From the IMG/VR virus record IMGVR_UViG_3300035670_000597, positions 1 to 38,581 of that record: a stretch of DNA of 38,581 nt, one strand, 5' to 3'. This DNA comes from a virus. Position numbers and translations under genes: made by a program. This document shows, one piece after another, positions 945 to 35,442 of the stretch. The notes below the pieces were generated by a model. The model was not told where the DNA came from. It did not search any database and saw only the letters and a program-made list of their open reading frames with translations. The first letter of the stretch is position 1. Every line of letters begins with the position of its first letter.

Positions 945-1664
945 CTACTCACCAAGGCTCTCTGGGTCGATACCCTTGTCGCGTAATTCGTTCTTCATGT
1001 GCTCTATGGACTTATCCATAAGGGCATCGTAGGCATCAGGGAAATGACGCTTCAGTTCCCTTGGCTGTTGCGCTGCCGTGACAAGGATCTGCATGAGTTT
1101 CATGTTCTCATCACCACCAAACTCATCAGGATCTGGGATCTCCTGATCGTAGGTGGCATGGCGATACTCAGACTTGCCGTCTGGCGTAGTCCATTCGTAG
1201 GCAAGATCATTGGGGAATGAAACGCCTTTGAACACAGAGCCATCTTCGTTTACGATTCTGGCAACTAGACCCATTGGCTTAGCCCAACCATGCAACATCA
1301 TTACTACGGTTTGATCACCTAGCAACTCAACGAGTTTGTCCTTGGGGACAGGGGGCATACACATAGCAGCCTTTGCTGCCCTGACTTCTGACTCCTGAAG
1401 TCGCTTACGCAACCCTTCTACAGTGTCTCCTTCTGCAACCCCAATGTGCTTCTTGTCCTCAAGATCTTGTAGCGCTTCGTCATTATCGACTGACGCCACA
1501 TAGAGCAAGATGCTGTTCTCTTCATCGGCAAACTCGTTGTCCAATGCTGCAAAGATGCCTTTGCTTATGGTCACTGCTTCATCACGGGCTTCCTGCGTAA
1601 GACGCTTGTCTTCTGCCTCTACGATGTTGCGCAGTTGATCCATCAACTCCTTCTCGCTATCCAT
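945..1664 (-). CDS. Hypothetical protein, third gene of the MoxR/vWA cluster, 239 aa
   Basis: The product is not assigned. The ATG at 1664 is preferred because AAGGAAGGAG precedes it, and it lies 2 bases after the stop of the vWA gene, so the two are co-translated. The N-terminus is an acidic amphipathic helix (ELMDQLRNIVEAEDKR). The middle carries a hydrophobic strand with VVMMLHGWAKP near residues 121-131. The C-terminal half is rich in Asp/Glu and ends in a helical segment. The ELMD-L start and the hydrophobic strand with a W-A pair echo the protein at 4073-4612, so the two may be distant relatives. Position suggests a partner or substrate adaptor of the AAA+/vWA pair, which is inference only. 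Confidence 0.75.
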   Translation of the reverse strand: MDSEKELMDQLRNIVEAEDKRLTQEARDEAVTISKGIFAALDNEFADEENSILLYVASVDNDEALQDLEDKKHIGVAEGDTVEGLRKRLQESEVRAAKAAMCMPPVPKDKLVELLGDQTVVMMLHGWAKPMGLVARIVNEDGSVFKGVSFPNDLAYEWTTPDGKSEYRHATYDQEIPDPDEFGGDENMKLMQILVTAAQQPRELKRHFPDAYDALMDKSIEHMKNELRDKGIDPESLGE

Positions 1665-1666
1665 TG

Positions 1667-3001
1667 CTATCTCCTTCCTTGTAGTGACTTGAGTATCTTT
1701 ACTGCTTCTGGCACATCTTTGGCTTCGTGAATGTTGTACCTGCGCACTAGGTGCAAGCACTCATCAAGCAATGCCTCTGAGTGATAATCGCCTTGTCCTG
1801 TGACATTCTGGTCTGATACCCAAATGACGGGGTTCTTGCTGCTTTGGCGCAAGCCCAAACCGTATTTGAGAGCGGGAGCATCACACCCATTGCCACCAGG
1901 GAACTCTGGCAAGCGTCGTACACGCCTGCCCCTACGAGCAACGACCCAAGCGTTAGGGTAGTTGTCGCTGGCGTAAGCGCCTGTTGAGTAACAGAGCACG
2001 GTGCTACCTGCTGCAGCAGCCATAACCTGTTCCATCTCTTGTTCCGTCAAGGACATAGAGCCAGAACAGTCAAAGACCACAACAGCACCAAGAGCAGGAG
2101 ACTTCTTGGCAAAGCAACGCCTGTGTTCATCGGTGTAGAACCGACTGATGTTACGCACCACTTTGCCTGAGTCTGAATACCCAAGTTTCCTGCCCATAAG
2201 ACCAGAGTGTGTGATCTCTAGGTCTGGCTTCTGAACAAACAATGGATACCAATGGTTGGACTCAAAGCCCTTGGTTGGCATACCATTGCCGAACTCTTGA
2301 GTATTGCCTTGCGGCTTCCTGCCCTGAGCCTGATCTGCCTCACAAACTCTCTGGCTCTCAGTCTTTGACACCCTGTCAAGCAAGCGAGCCAAGCGCCTGT
2401 ACATGTACATTGCTCGGTTCCTGTACCACTTGTCGTCAGAGTTCAGACGCAAGATGCAACTGATGAAACCGTACTGGTCGGTTAGCCGTTGGACAGCATT
2501 CTGTATTTGTCCAAGAGCAACCTGCCGATACATGTCATCGGTGTTTGCTATCAGGGTTGCCATAGCCTGAGTGTTTGCGTACTTTGCCGCTTCTAGCAAC
2601 AGCGCCGGTGTAGGCTCTGGCTCTTTCAGCAACTGGGTCAGAACATCTAACTGAACCGTGCCAATAGTCGGATCATCGTTGTACACATGGCTGTATACAG
2701 CGTAAGAGACTATGTGCTGAGCAGTTGAGAGTGCTGCTTCTGATACTTCCCATCTCTTGGTGTAGGTCTTTGCCTTTGGGAGAAAGAAGCGTGCGTGCGT
2801 AAGAGCAACACGGCGCAACTTCCTAGACAATGAGCCTTCGCCAATAGGGGCGTTGATGGAGTGTGACCGTTTGGGCGTACCAAACTGCACACTAACGCCA
2901 TTGAGATCAGCAGCAGACGAGCCTTGCTCGTACTTGTTGTGATCTAATAATGGTCGTTTGGGTAACGCTTCTGGCGTTACTAGCCGTCTGGGCGTAGACA
3001 T
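1667..3001 (-). CDS. CobT-like protein with C-terminal vWA domain, 444 aa
   Basis: The C-terminal third is a von Willebrand factor A domain. VVVFDCSGSMS (D311, S313, S315) is the first MIDAS metal-binding motif, GGNGCDAPAL near 370 fits the second loop, and VIWVSD (D397) the third. The first 300 residues are helical and basic, with a large hydrophobic and charged region typical of proteins that pair with MoxR-type ATPases. This layout (long N-terminus, C-terminal vWA) is that of cobaltochelatase subunit CobT and of vWA partners of MoxR. The ATG at 3001 overlaps the stop of the ATPase gene in TAATG, so the two are translationally coupled. Members of this family act as adaptors between an AAA+ ring and a protein target. 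No CobN-like chelatase is present, so cobalamin synthesis is not indicated. Confidence 0.88.
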   Translation of the reverse strand: MSTPRRLVTPEALPKRPLLDHNKYEQGSSAADLNGVSVQFGTPKRSHSINAPIGEGSLSRKLRRVALTHARFFLPKAKTYTKRWEVSEAALSTAQHIVSYAVYSHVYNDDPTIGTVQLDVLTQLLKEPEPTPALLLEAAKYANTQAMATLIANTDDMYRQVALGQIQNAVQRLTDQYGFISCILRLNSDDKWYRNRAMYMYRRLARLLDRVSKTESQRVCEADQAQGRKPQGNTQEFGNGMPTKGFESNHWYPLFVQKPDLEITHSGLMGRKLGYSDSGKVVRNISRFYTDEHRRCFAKKSPALGAVVVFDCSGSMSLTEQEMEQVMAAAAGSTVLCYSTGAYASDNYPNAWVVARRGRRVRRLPEFPGGNGCDAPALKYGLGLRQSSKNPVIWVSDQNVTGQGDYHSEALLDECLHLVRRYNIHEAKDVPEAVKILKSLQGRR

Positions 3002-3765
3002 TACAGGCTCTCCATCTGTGCCAATGCCATAGCATCAACAACCTGCTCGGCAATACGGGGCAAGCAGATTTCTGCTGAGCGCTGAATGTTACCGGTGTTG
3101 GCAACAGCACGCACAAACTCTACGAAGTTACGCAGAGAGTACCTGTCCTTATCGGTTCTGCTGCACATGGACAACGCCAAGTCCCTGATGTATTCGGGCA
3201 ATGACCCTACGGCTTCAGGGTGTGGCTCGTTGATCTGCACTTGGACAATGAGCCTGTCCTGAATGGCTCGCGCCAAGTCTTCAGGCTCGCCGTTCATTGT
3301 GGCGACAACGCTGAAGCCATTAGCAGGCTTGATGACTTCACCCGTTTCTGGGTGTTGCCAAGAAGACGATGAGTCTGTGTCAATGAGTGCCATGAGCCTT
3401 GACTCAATGTCGCCATTGACCCTGTCGATTTCGTCTACGACCAAACGACCACCTGTTCTCCAAGCCTGAATGGCAACGCCTTCATGGAACTTGAGAGCCA
3501 TGTGACCGTCAATGGCTGTTGGCTTGTAAACGCCAATGAGATCAGCGTCTGTCATCTCTTGCGTACACACCAAGCGATAAGTCGGCTTGTCGTTAGTGTG
3601 ATAGTTCATTGCGTAGAAGGTCTTACCTGTACCAGGCAATCCGTGTAAGAGCACACGGTTTACGCCTGACTGCAAGGCAAAGTCTGCCTTCTCCCAAGCC
3701 GTCATGGGCTTGGTCTCTGGAGTAACGACCATCTGGTCGTTGCTCGTTTCGGTTACGGTATCCAT
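3001..3765 (-). CDS. MoxR/CobS-type AAA+ ATPase, 254 aa
   Basis: Walker A is GLPGTGKT (42-49), Walker B LVVDEID (108-114), sensor 1 VVATMN (N158) and a likely arginine finger lies in QDRL (R171). The length and the short C-terminal helical lid fit MoxR and CobS proteins. The ATG at 3765 has AAGGGAG upstream, whereas an earlier in-frame ATG at 3810 lies inside a palindrome. The gene opens a unit with the vWA gene (TAATG overlap) and a third protein. In known systems such ATPases remodel protein complexes or assist metal insertion, with the vWA protein as adaptor. CobS-like genes occur in several phage groups, but their role in infection is unresolved. The call of ATPase is firm and the target is unknown. 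Confidence 0.92.
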   Translation of the reverse strand: MDTVTETSNDQMVVTPETKPMTAWEKADFALQSGVNRVLLHGLPGTGKTFYAMNYHTNDKPTYRLVCTQEMTDADLIGVYKPTAIDGHMALKFHEGVAIQAWRTGGRLVVDEIDRVNGDIESRLMALIDTDSSSSWQHPETGEVIKPANGFSVVATMNGEPEDLARAIQDRLIVQVQINEPHPEAVGSLPEYIRDLALSMCSRTDKDRYSLRNFVEFVRAVANTGNIQRSAEICLPRIAEQVVDAMALAQMESL

Positions 3766-3806: not shown

Positions 3807-3831
3807 GCATACCGTTAGAACGGCAGTATGC
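3807..3831. promoter_or_regulatory. Operator-like palindrome upstream of the MoxR gene
   Basis: An imperfect 25-bp dyad has outer arms GCATAC and GTATGC and inner CGTT and AACG. It lies 42 bases before the MoxR start, where an operator would be expected. No convincing -35/-10 pair was found nearby. A second dyad, CTTACAGC (3867-3874) and GCTGTAAG (3886-3893), lies just upstream. Confidence 0.4.
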
Positions 3832-4072: not shown

Positions 4073-4612
4073 CTACCAGCCGTAACAGGCTGTTGCTATT
4101 GCTCTTGTTAGTTTGTTCTCTGAACGGAATGCATCACTCTTCGTCTCGCTCATTTCGTGAACCTCGTTGTTGAAACGAGCAAGAACATGTACACCAGCAG
4201 AGGTGCAAAGGCAAGTGATGTGCGTTGTGTATCTGTCGTCGGACTCGGACGGCTTCTTCCCGGTAGCGGGAGCGGTAGCGGAAGTCCAGGCCGTACACCT
4301 GAGAACTATGCCCACGCTTCCGTCGTTCTTGCACTCCTGGATCATGTCGTCATCAGCAAGTGCGACGTAAGGATCAGGGTACACACCGACAAGCTTGACT
4401 CCAAGAGCGAAGCCTTCCTCTGGTTGTTCTTCTGGTTCCGAAAGAGACCACACTTCGGTGACTCCATCCTCAACTGGATCTGCTTTCTCCACGAAGCCAG
4501 CTTCGATTGCTTTGAAGTCTTCCATCTCGAGCTCCATCCGATCTTTATTGGCGCTGACCGCAGCGTCAAACATGATCTTCTTGAGTTCGTCCATTAGTTC
4601 TTCGTTGCTCAT
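4073..4612 (-). CDS. Acidic hypothetical protein, 179 aa
   Basis: The product is unrecognised. The ATG at 4612 overlaps the upstream stop in TAATG and has an AAGAAGG-like site. The N-terminus (NEELMDELKKIMFDAAVSAN) is an acidic amphipathic helix, and residues 40-80 are very Glu-rich. The C-terminal half is hydrophobic beta-type sequence with VGIVLRCTAWTSA and a CLCTSAG strand. A low-complexity Ala/Thr stretch is encoded by GGTAGC-like triplet repeats around 4259-4281. Its start and its W-A strand resemble the protein at 945-1664. The pair may be copies of one domain placed on either side of the MoxR/vWA genes, but the similarity is weak. Confidence 0.75.
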   Translation of the reverse strand: MSNEELMDELKKIMFDAAVSANKDRMELEMEDFKAIEAGFVEKADPVEDGVTEVWSLSEPEEQPEEGFALGVKLVGVYPDPYVALADDDMIQECKNDGSVGIVLRCTAWTSATAPATGKKPSESDDRYTTHITCLCTSAGVHVLARFNNEVHEMSETKSDAFRSENKLTRAIATACYGW

Positions 4613-33552: not shown

Positions 33553-35442
33553 CTATTTCTTTTTTGTCTTGCGTGCCGTGCTCCTGATGGCTCCAACCGT
33601 TTCAGACTGACGGTTTGCCTGAGCAAACGCAACCCTGTTGTAAAGAGCTTGCGTTTCTGGGCGCGCCCGCTTGTATCGAGCCATCCTTCTTTCCTGTTTA
33701 AGAATTGCAGAAGCCGAACTCTTCTTCTGCGCGGAAACCGTTTCCTGCAACTCCTTGATCAGTTTGCTATTCCGTTGAACAAAAGCCTTCTGCTCTGCTG
33801 GAGACGCAGCGCGAAGAAGTTCTTTGCCTCCACTTGCGGTCCACTTGTCTAGTTCCTTTGTCGTCTTGAACGTTGCTTCAGAAACCGACCTAATGTTCTT
33901 GGGCTGACCACCAATAACAACATCAAAAACCTTTTTGGTTTCTGCTTTTGTGGTCTTAGGTTTTGTTGACTTGGCAACGTTCGTGGCTTTTACCCTTGGA
34001 GCCGCTGCCTTCTTGGCTACAGTTTCTCCGCCTTCTGCAACAAACTTTGCCATCGCCTTTGACTGGTTCTGAACCATGTTGTTGATTACATCAGAAGAAA
34101 CCATTTCCAGATTGCTGCCAGAAGCCTTTGAGGTTGTCTCAAGGAAGTTGGCATTCATGCGCGGACCGGTGTAGATCATTCCTTCAAACTTTGGCTCTGC
34201 GGCTTTCTTGGCTGGTGCCTTCTTGGCTTGAGCCTTCTTTACGGTTGCCTTCTTGGCTGGTGCTTTTTTGGCAACAGCCTTTGTCGGCGCAGCCTTGGTT
34301 GTCTTTGCAATTGTTTCAACCTTTGGAGCTTCAACAACTTGTTGTGCAGCCTTCTTTGCCGAAGCCTTTTTGACCGGAGCCTTCTTTGCCACTTTTACGG
34401 CTGGAGCACCACTACGACCACTGAGCTTTACGCCAGGAACCTTTGCTCCACTGGCTGCATTCTTGGCTCCTTTTGCTGCGCCCTTTGCGCCAGCGGCAGC
34501 ACCCTTAGCACCTTGGGCTGCGCCGCGTACGCCACCAGCAGTTGTGGACCTTGTCACAGGCGTTGGCGTCTTGGTCGCACGAGGAGTTCGCGGCTTCTTG
34601 AGCGGACCCGGGGTATTAATTTTTACCCCGCCAAGTTCACCCGGCTTTGGCCCCATCCTTACCGCATCATCAATCTTGCTGGTTACGACTTTTGCGTCGT
34701 CTGCCTTTGAAAGAATCCTTCCGGTTCTAGATGCGGTCAGCGCCGCCCTACTGCCTTTGGCAAGACCCTTAATGGTTGCACCAGCGGCAGGGGTACCAAC
34801 GATGCTTGCAAGTGTTGCAGCCGTATTGACTGCGGCCTCAAGCGGAGCAGCCTCACGAACCTTAAGCTTTGGAGAGATTCGCCCAACACTTTGGTTCCAT
34901 GCAGGAGCAACAAATGTGGCCTGAAGGCTTTCGGCTTCACCAACAACAAAGTCCCCAGCCTTCTTCTGTGCTCCCTGAAGCCACTTCATCCAATTGCTTG
35001 GATTAAATGCCGCTTCTGTGGTTCGCTGAATAATGTCGGGTTTCCAAGTAGCAGCAGGCTTGGTTGAACCTGCAGGTGTCTGGCCCCAGCCCTGAACGGA
35101 CTGACGCCGGACCTGATTCATCTGGGCAGATGAGATACGCGTTGGTGAAGTTGTAGAACCCTTGCCCGACGAACCACGGTTGTTGGCCGCTTTCGTCGCA
35201 GCGATTCTCTTGAGGTCTGTTTCTGTGTAAAAGCCAGCACGCTTTACTCCTCCCGTTTCAAACTTTTGACGAAGCGCCTTTCGATCAACGGGCTTACCCG
35301 CTGCTTCAAGTTCTGCTGCACGCTTCTGAACAAAGAAACGCTTGCGAGCTTCGGCTTTTTCTAGATTGGGTCGAGCCTGAACAAATTCACGGCGTTCTTT
35401 TTCCAGCTGAATTTGTGCAGGTGTCTTCTTCTTCGATGCCAT
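33553..35442 (-). CDS. Histone-like Lys/Ala-rich virion protein, 629 aa
   Basis: Residues 1-170 are basic and helical. Residues 171-214 are a segment also present in the protein at 37425-37991. Residues 307-335 repeat G-A-A-x-G-A-K. Residues 351-415 repeat A-K-K-A-P-A-K-K, as in the tails of actinobacterial HU proteins and histone H1, which bind DNA. The last 180 residues are helical and basic (ARYKRARPETQALYN). GGAG lies before the ATG at 35442. It is placed between terminase and portal. It may condense DNA in the capsid or on entry, but could equally be a head component with a disordered basic region. Confidence 0.78.
   Translation of the reverse strand: MASKKKTPAQIQLEKERREFVQARPNLEKAEARKRFFVQKRAAELEAAGKPVDRKALRQKFETGGVKRAGFYTETDLKRIAATKAANNRGSSGKGSTTSPTRISSAQMNQVRRQSVQGWGQTPAGSTKPAATWKPDIIQRTTEAAFNPSNWMKWLQGAQKKAGDFVVGEAESLQATFVAPAWNQSVGRISPKLKVREAAPLEAAVNTAATLASIVGTPAAGATIKGLAKGSRAALTASRTGRILSKADDAKVVTSKIDDAVRMGPKPGELGGVKINTPGPLKKPRTPRATKTPTPVTRSTTAGGVRGAAQGAKGAAAGAKGAAKGAKNAASGAKVPGVKLSGRSGAPAVKVAKKAPVKKASAKKAAQQVVEAPKVETIAKTTKAAPTKAVAKKAPAKKATVKKAQAKKAPAKKAAEPKFEGMIYTGPRMNANFLETTSKASGSNLEMVSSDVINNMVQNQSKAMAKFVAEGGETVAKKAAAPRVKATNVAKSTKPKTTKAETKKVFDVVIGGQPKNIRSVSEATFKTTKELDKWTASGGKELLRAASPAEQKAFVQRNSKLIKELQETVSAQKKSSASAILKQERRMARYKRARPETQALYNRVAFAQANRQSETVGAIRSTARKTKKK

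Follow-up and report, generated by a model that had tools for sequence, protein, structure and literature searches.

What does a small virus do with a MoxR-type AAA+ ATPase gene coupled to a vWA gene? This is the question raised by the locus described here. The window, meaning the whole stretch of DNA that was analyzed, is a virus record of 38,581 bases in which almost every gene lies on the minus strand. The genes recognized encode the terminase large subunit, portal, capsid and tail proteins, a RecE/YqaJ-type exonuclease, a second exonuclease-family protein, and WhiB. As noted in the first-pass annotation, no polymerase or helicase was recognized among the ORFs searched. The presence of WhiB points to an actinobacterial host. 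In the relative L001, the left-end genes continue straight into the terminase, and the window record is therefore probably a circularly permuted genome, as judged from gene order. The pair is flanked on one side by the WhiB/recombination genes and on the other by the packaging genes:

3001-3765, minus strand: MoxR/CobS-like AAA+ ATPase, 254 aa (AAA_5, PHROG 16448, PHROG 249, invariant motifs)
1667-3001, minus strand: CobT-like vWA protein, 444 aa, basic, pI 9.4 (PHROG 33218, profile match, Foldseek)

The ATPase matched Pfam AAA_5 at 60.7 bits (curated cut-off 22; E 2e-16), PHROG 16448 (ATPase) at E 1e-59, and PHROG 249 (CobS) at E 3e-21. The earlier description of a complete AAA+ ATPase was verified. 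The Walker A (GLPGTGKT), Walker B (LVVDEID), sensor 1 (ATMN) and QDR residues were invariant in 10 relatives. The first ATG of the ORF is at 3810; the start chosen, 3765, is supported because the L001 ORF begins at the equivalent residue. The best solved sequence relatives were the AAA domains of midasin, and NorQ was also among the matched structures. In a maximum-likelihood tree, 19 phage ATPases clustered together (99/99), separately from cyanophage CobS and from the AAA proteins of Gordonia phages, the placement of which is itself weak. By its sequence, the gene product is a MoxR-type AAA+ ATPase.

The ATG of the vWA gene has one base in common with the ATPase stop codon (TAATG), exactly the overlap first reported. 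The vWA protein contains a helical N-terminal domain (about residues 57-225) and a C-terminal vWA domain (about 300-444), and it matched PHROG 33218, a family of unannotated function, at E 1e-127. The vWA fold was not detected by Pfam, NCBIfam or PDB sequence search. A profile of the vWA domain, however, matched vWA proteins of the kind that partner MoxR ATPases: one from Cytobacillus (P 4e-6), YehP (2e-4), ViaA (5e-4) and one from Halomicrobium (7e-4), as well as a Gordonia CobT-like protein (P 0.003); the controls, 31 phage families of unrelated proteins encoded at those loci, gave 0.078 at best. NorD gave no match to this profile. The AlphaFold model (pLDDT 81) showed the strand-helix order expected for vWA; its pTM of 0.53 makes the relative arrangement of the domains uncertain. 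Foldseek comparison of the model with viral models placed VWFA (4.5e-7) and the CobT-like protein of GMA7 (1e-5) among the top matches, and comparison of the full-length model with the PDB returned no vWA protein and nothing significant. The profiles, the predicted strand order and the viral Foldseek matches thus give good support for a very divergent vWA protein, and the objection considered at the outset, that the protein might lack a vWA fold, is answered. The family is conserved at identities as low as about 25% while its motifs stay invariant, which excludes chance or an annotation artefact.

The first-pass annotation had counted all three MIDAS loops. Each was located, and the residues listed were invariant in 26 aligned sequences:

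2054-2086, minus strand: MIDAS loop 1, AVVVFDCSGSM (D311, S313, S315)
1877-1897, minus strand: MIDAS loop 2, GGNGCDA (N371, D374)
1808-1825, minus strand: MIDAS loop 3, IWVSDQ (D397)

Loops 1 (DCSGSM) and 3 (WVSD) are canonical, as claimed, but loop 2 has the form GNGxD, with Asn N371 in place of the usual Thr. The loop-2 pattern differs in certain more distant relatives that were found later. A Ro60/TROVE-like reading, prompted by the GGNGCD motif, was dropped when no match was found. The N-terminus also separates two lineages. An HExxH motif was present in 0 of 17 sequences with an N-terminus in the window's lineage versus 8 of 8 in a distant lineage, here called lineage B, where it is followed in most proteins by EE(V/M)RVN. 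In cyanophage and Gordonia CobT-like proteins, HExxH is followed by ED(I/M)R. From these motifs, a peptidase site was likely, if not certainly, lost in the window's lineage.

The resemblance to CobS and CobT brings in one explanation, namely that the pair serves as CobST-type cobaltochelatase subunits that use host CobN to boost cobalamin output. The match of the ATPase to the phage CobS family, the resemblance of loop 2 (GNGxD.PAL) to Gordonia-phage CobT-like proteins, and the proposal of this role for other tailed viruses (PMC8651126) are in its favor. The ATPase, however, scored only 14.9 bits against the NCBIfam CobS model TIGR01650, far below the cut-off of 558.55, and does not group with cyanophage CobS. 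Pfam CobT (PF06213) and CobT_C (PF11775) gave no match at E 1 in the window, and PF06213 was likewise absent from four lineage-B records. CobN (PF02514) was not found in the genome, in agreement with the original observation, and no ribonucleotide reductase was recognized among the ORFs searched. Failure at the CobS and CobT cut-offs, together with the lack of CobN in the genome, makes cobalt chelation unlikely. The sequence features tested reject cobaltochelatase membership but not a MoxR-vWA remodelling activity, the metal insertion role once suggested is left unsupported, and the explanation as a whole is very improbable.

The pair is accompanied by acidic proteins:

945-1664, minus strand: third protein, 239 aa, pI 4.5, of a family found directly after the vWA gene in close relatives
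4073-4612, minus strand: acidic protein, 179 aa, pI 4.4, upstream of the ATPase, aligned by hhalign to the third-protein family

The third protein starts 2 bases past the vWA stop, as first described, with a ribosome-binding-like GGAGG ahead of it. Its AlphaFold model (pLDDT 83.5) is alpha/beta with long N- and C-terminal helices, and no significant fold match to it was found in the PDB with Foldseek. The 4073-4612 and 945-1664 families are distant paralogues (hhalign 97.9%, E 5e-13). In each lineage checked, a basic vWA gene (pI 8.6-10.1) is followed by an acidic gene (pI 4.2-5.0). Between c12 and c14, the third-protein families of the two main lineages, no homology was detected, so a fixed third component is not established. 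The broader description of a dedicated pair of CobT-like flavor with extra partners close by is supported.

Other genes were observed around the pair. An acidic family with a GWxxP-type motif, c5, whose profile resembles the 4073-4612 family, varies in position by lineage. It lies between the ATPase and vWA genes in L005-L009, L011, L022 and L024, and downstream of the third gene in L031-L039. A protein of the PHROG 3704 'ferredoxin' family is encoded near the pair in lineage-B phages (L039:3898-4587).

Relatives were collected by several routes. Neither protein had a relative in a set of 84,980 bacterial and archaeal genomes that was scanned twice. Searches of phage genomes by tblastn gave no match with the vWA protein or with two of its distant relatives as queries, and scans of viral sequences with single-sequence queries picked up two relatives of the ATPase but none of the vWA protein. 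A motif scan built from an eight-sequence alignment found 31 vWA loci. In all 28 of these with upstream sequence, the ATPase gene lies directly ahead of the vWA gene, with a single small gene separating the two in one sub-clade. In L089 (5105-6488), the ATPase gene is intact but the adjacent vWA gene is broken up into two ORFs that overlap, through sequencing error or gene decay.

Co-inheritance was measured with the terminase as an independent bait, and loci were counted if at least 6.5 kb of upstream sequence was available. Among the 52 terminase-matched phages, 21 carried both genes, 31 carried neither, and none carried a single gene. When 28 contigs that had been called lacking or unclear were searched over their whole records, the genes turned up only in G026 and G027, at a contig end. 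All pair-lacking phages fall in a single clade (100/100), and one joint loss or gain is therefore enough for the tree. Outside these viruses, a vWA gene came next in 4 of 6 plasmid relatives of the ATPase checked, and ViaA follows RavA in E. coli. The pair is adjacent and co-inherited in viruses, and the coupling is strong and real; relatives with the two genes in unrelated places, once named as a possible refutation, did not appear among the loci.

The same comparison contradicts, for this phage type, the suggestion that the task is essential, as the 31 pair-lacking genomes belong to close sister phages, with terminases 72-76% identical; many are near full genome length. Upstream of the terminase, the sister clade carries C5-methyltransferases (16 of 31), ArdA (6) and N6/N4-methyltransferases (3). 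In L110, L127 and other sisters, the stretch between WhiB and the terminase holds a fast-changing methyltransferase/ArdA set in place of the pair. The contrast, a single evolutionary one, suggests that the stretch holding the pair is an early/accessory locus.

This setting raises the explanation of counter-defence or host takeover, in which a host complex is stripped or put out of action by the pair early in infection, the role that methyltransferases and ArdA play in the sisters. The shared WhiB-terminase stretch fits, and anti-restriction-type genes (methyltransferases, ArdA) occur in 20/31 pair-lacking versus 1/21 pair-bearing phages (Fisher p 1e-5, a value that overstates the contrast because the pair-lacking phages are a single clade and the change of the pair is one event). 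The anti-restriction genes, moreover, need 11 changes on the tree, unlike the pair, which is stable in its own clade. Counter-defence is an unlikely explanation. Its most specific form, a clade-defining actinophage machine in which the MoxR-vWA pair and acidic adaptors dismantle a host restriction/defence complex inside the cell, is more doubtful still.

A second explanation, in which the pair is a chaperone of virion assembly or maturation and some structural or injected protein is what it folds or remodels, is brought in by a gene on the other side of the terminase:

33553-35442, minus strand: histone-like Lys/Ala-rich protein, 629 aa, pI 10.8, between terminase and portal

A large gene in this position was found in 19/23 pair-bearing versus 0/29 pair-lacking phages. 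The products form one linked homology group and are basic and Lys/Ala-rich in the examples read. Homologues of the 33553-35442 product range from 359 to 1565 aa, occur in most of the pair-bearing clade, and are absent from this position in sister phages. The product is possibly an internal virion protein. A virion role was also proposed for the ATV p618/p892 and jumbo-phage MoxR-vWA pairs (PMC4124505, PMC7824862). However, L077, L083, L086 and L101 carry the pair without a large gene between terminase and portal, and these four phages make it less likely that the pair acts on behalf of the basic protein encoded there; pair and large gene may simply be co-inherited within one clade. In lineage B the pair occurs alongside another terminase family and an early module of RecT type, so the pair is not tied to one virion type. 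No ATPase of this kind was seen in sister phages or in Streptomyces phages whose terminase, portal or tail proteins are related. The virion explanation is possible but rather unlikely, and an intracellular early/accessory role is somewhat favored over it.

We conclude that the pair is probably a phage-encoded two-component MoxR AAA+/vWA protein remodeller. The data establish the ATPase family, the conserved active-site residues and the co-inheritance with adjacency, and give good support for the vWA fold. If the pair works like midasin, RavA-ViaA and CobS-CobT, its ATPase would form a hexameric ring on which the basic vWA protein would dock. The metal site of the vWA MIDAS may then grip a carboxylate on an adaptor or client of acidic character, and motion driven by ATP would extract the client from a complex or insert it into one. 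Among the neighbors, the acidic protein 945-1664 and its paralogue 4073-4612 are the best candidates for such an adaptor or client. We infer that the target of such a machine would be a phage or host complex within the infected cell, in an early/accessory role, and not in the virion.

The system offers a natural experiment, with sister clades of closely related terminase and portal, one always carrying both genes and the other neither. The presence of HExxH in one lineage and its absence in the other, together with the adjacent acidic client candidates, adds to this, and the function of phage CobS/CobT-like pairs thereby becomes directly testable. Viral MoxR-vWA pairs are widely reported in tailed viruses, and hardly any functional work was found for bacteriophages.

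The earlier statement that CobS-like genes alone are known in phages does not hold. Tailed viruses whose hosts span eight prokaryotic orders were described with cobS-cobT (cobST) clusters (PMC8651126), and MoxR-vWA pairs were reported from jumbo phages (PMC7824862), from a Bacillus phage (PMC2147016) and from haloviruses (PMC7911831). The one viral pair found with biochemical data is ATV p618/p892: the two proteins interact, p892 raises the ATPase activity of p618, and the pair was assigned to virion tail development, p618 being a virion component (PMC4124505). ATV thus resembles the window in joining a MoxR ATPase to a vWA cofactor in a virus, but it is archaeal and spindle-shaped.

The cobS-cobT pairs of T4-like cyanophages and haloviruses (PMC8651126) are likewise tailed-virus genes for a MoxR-type AAA+ ATPase and a neighboring vWA/MIDAS protein. 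In P-HM2, the order is reversed relative to the window, with a vWA 'peptidase' just ahead of cobS, between gp46 and gp45. HExxH and a canonical GGT in loop 2 are features of the cyanophage vWA protein, neither of which is present in the window protein, and cyanophage CobS forms a separate group in the tree. When the window vWA protein was compared by hhalign with CobT from two cyanophage sequences, the alignment was confined to the DxSGS stretch. The Gordonia phages Katyusha and GMA7 carry an AAA-ATPase and a CobT-like protein and are actinophages, as is inferred for the window virus; Katyusha also has WhiB, and its loop 2 (GNLDG) is likened to that of the window. However, three small genes separate the two genes in Katyusha, the Gordonia CobT-like proteins have an N-terminal HExxH that the window lacks, and their ATPases are only distantly similar. 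Jumbo-phage group 2.2 MoxR-vWA proteins have an N-terminal metallopeptidase domain (PMC7824862) and are likened by domain type to lineage B (L031-L041), which has an N-terminal HExxH; the window's lineage lacks the motif and its genomes are much smaller. In RavA-ViaA, NorQ-NorD and midasin, MoxR-type AAA+ and vWA/MIDAS are likewise adjacent or fused, but these systems are cellular and their clients differ; the window vWA profile matches ViaA and YehP, not NorD. Since MoxR-vWA pairs are already published in tailed viruses, the window pair is a divergent form of a known type, and what is new here is a distant variant of that pair in a small, probably actinobacterial virus.
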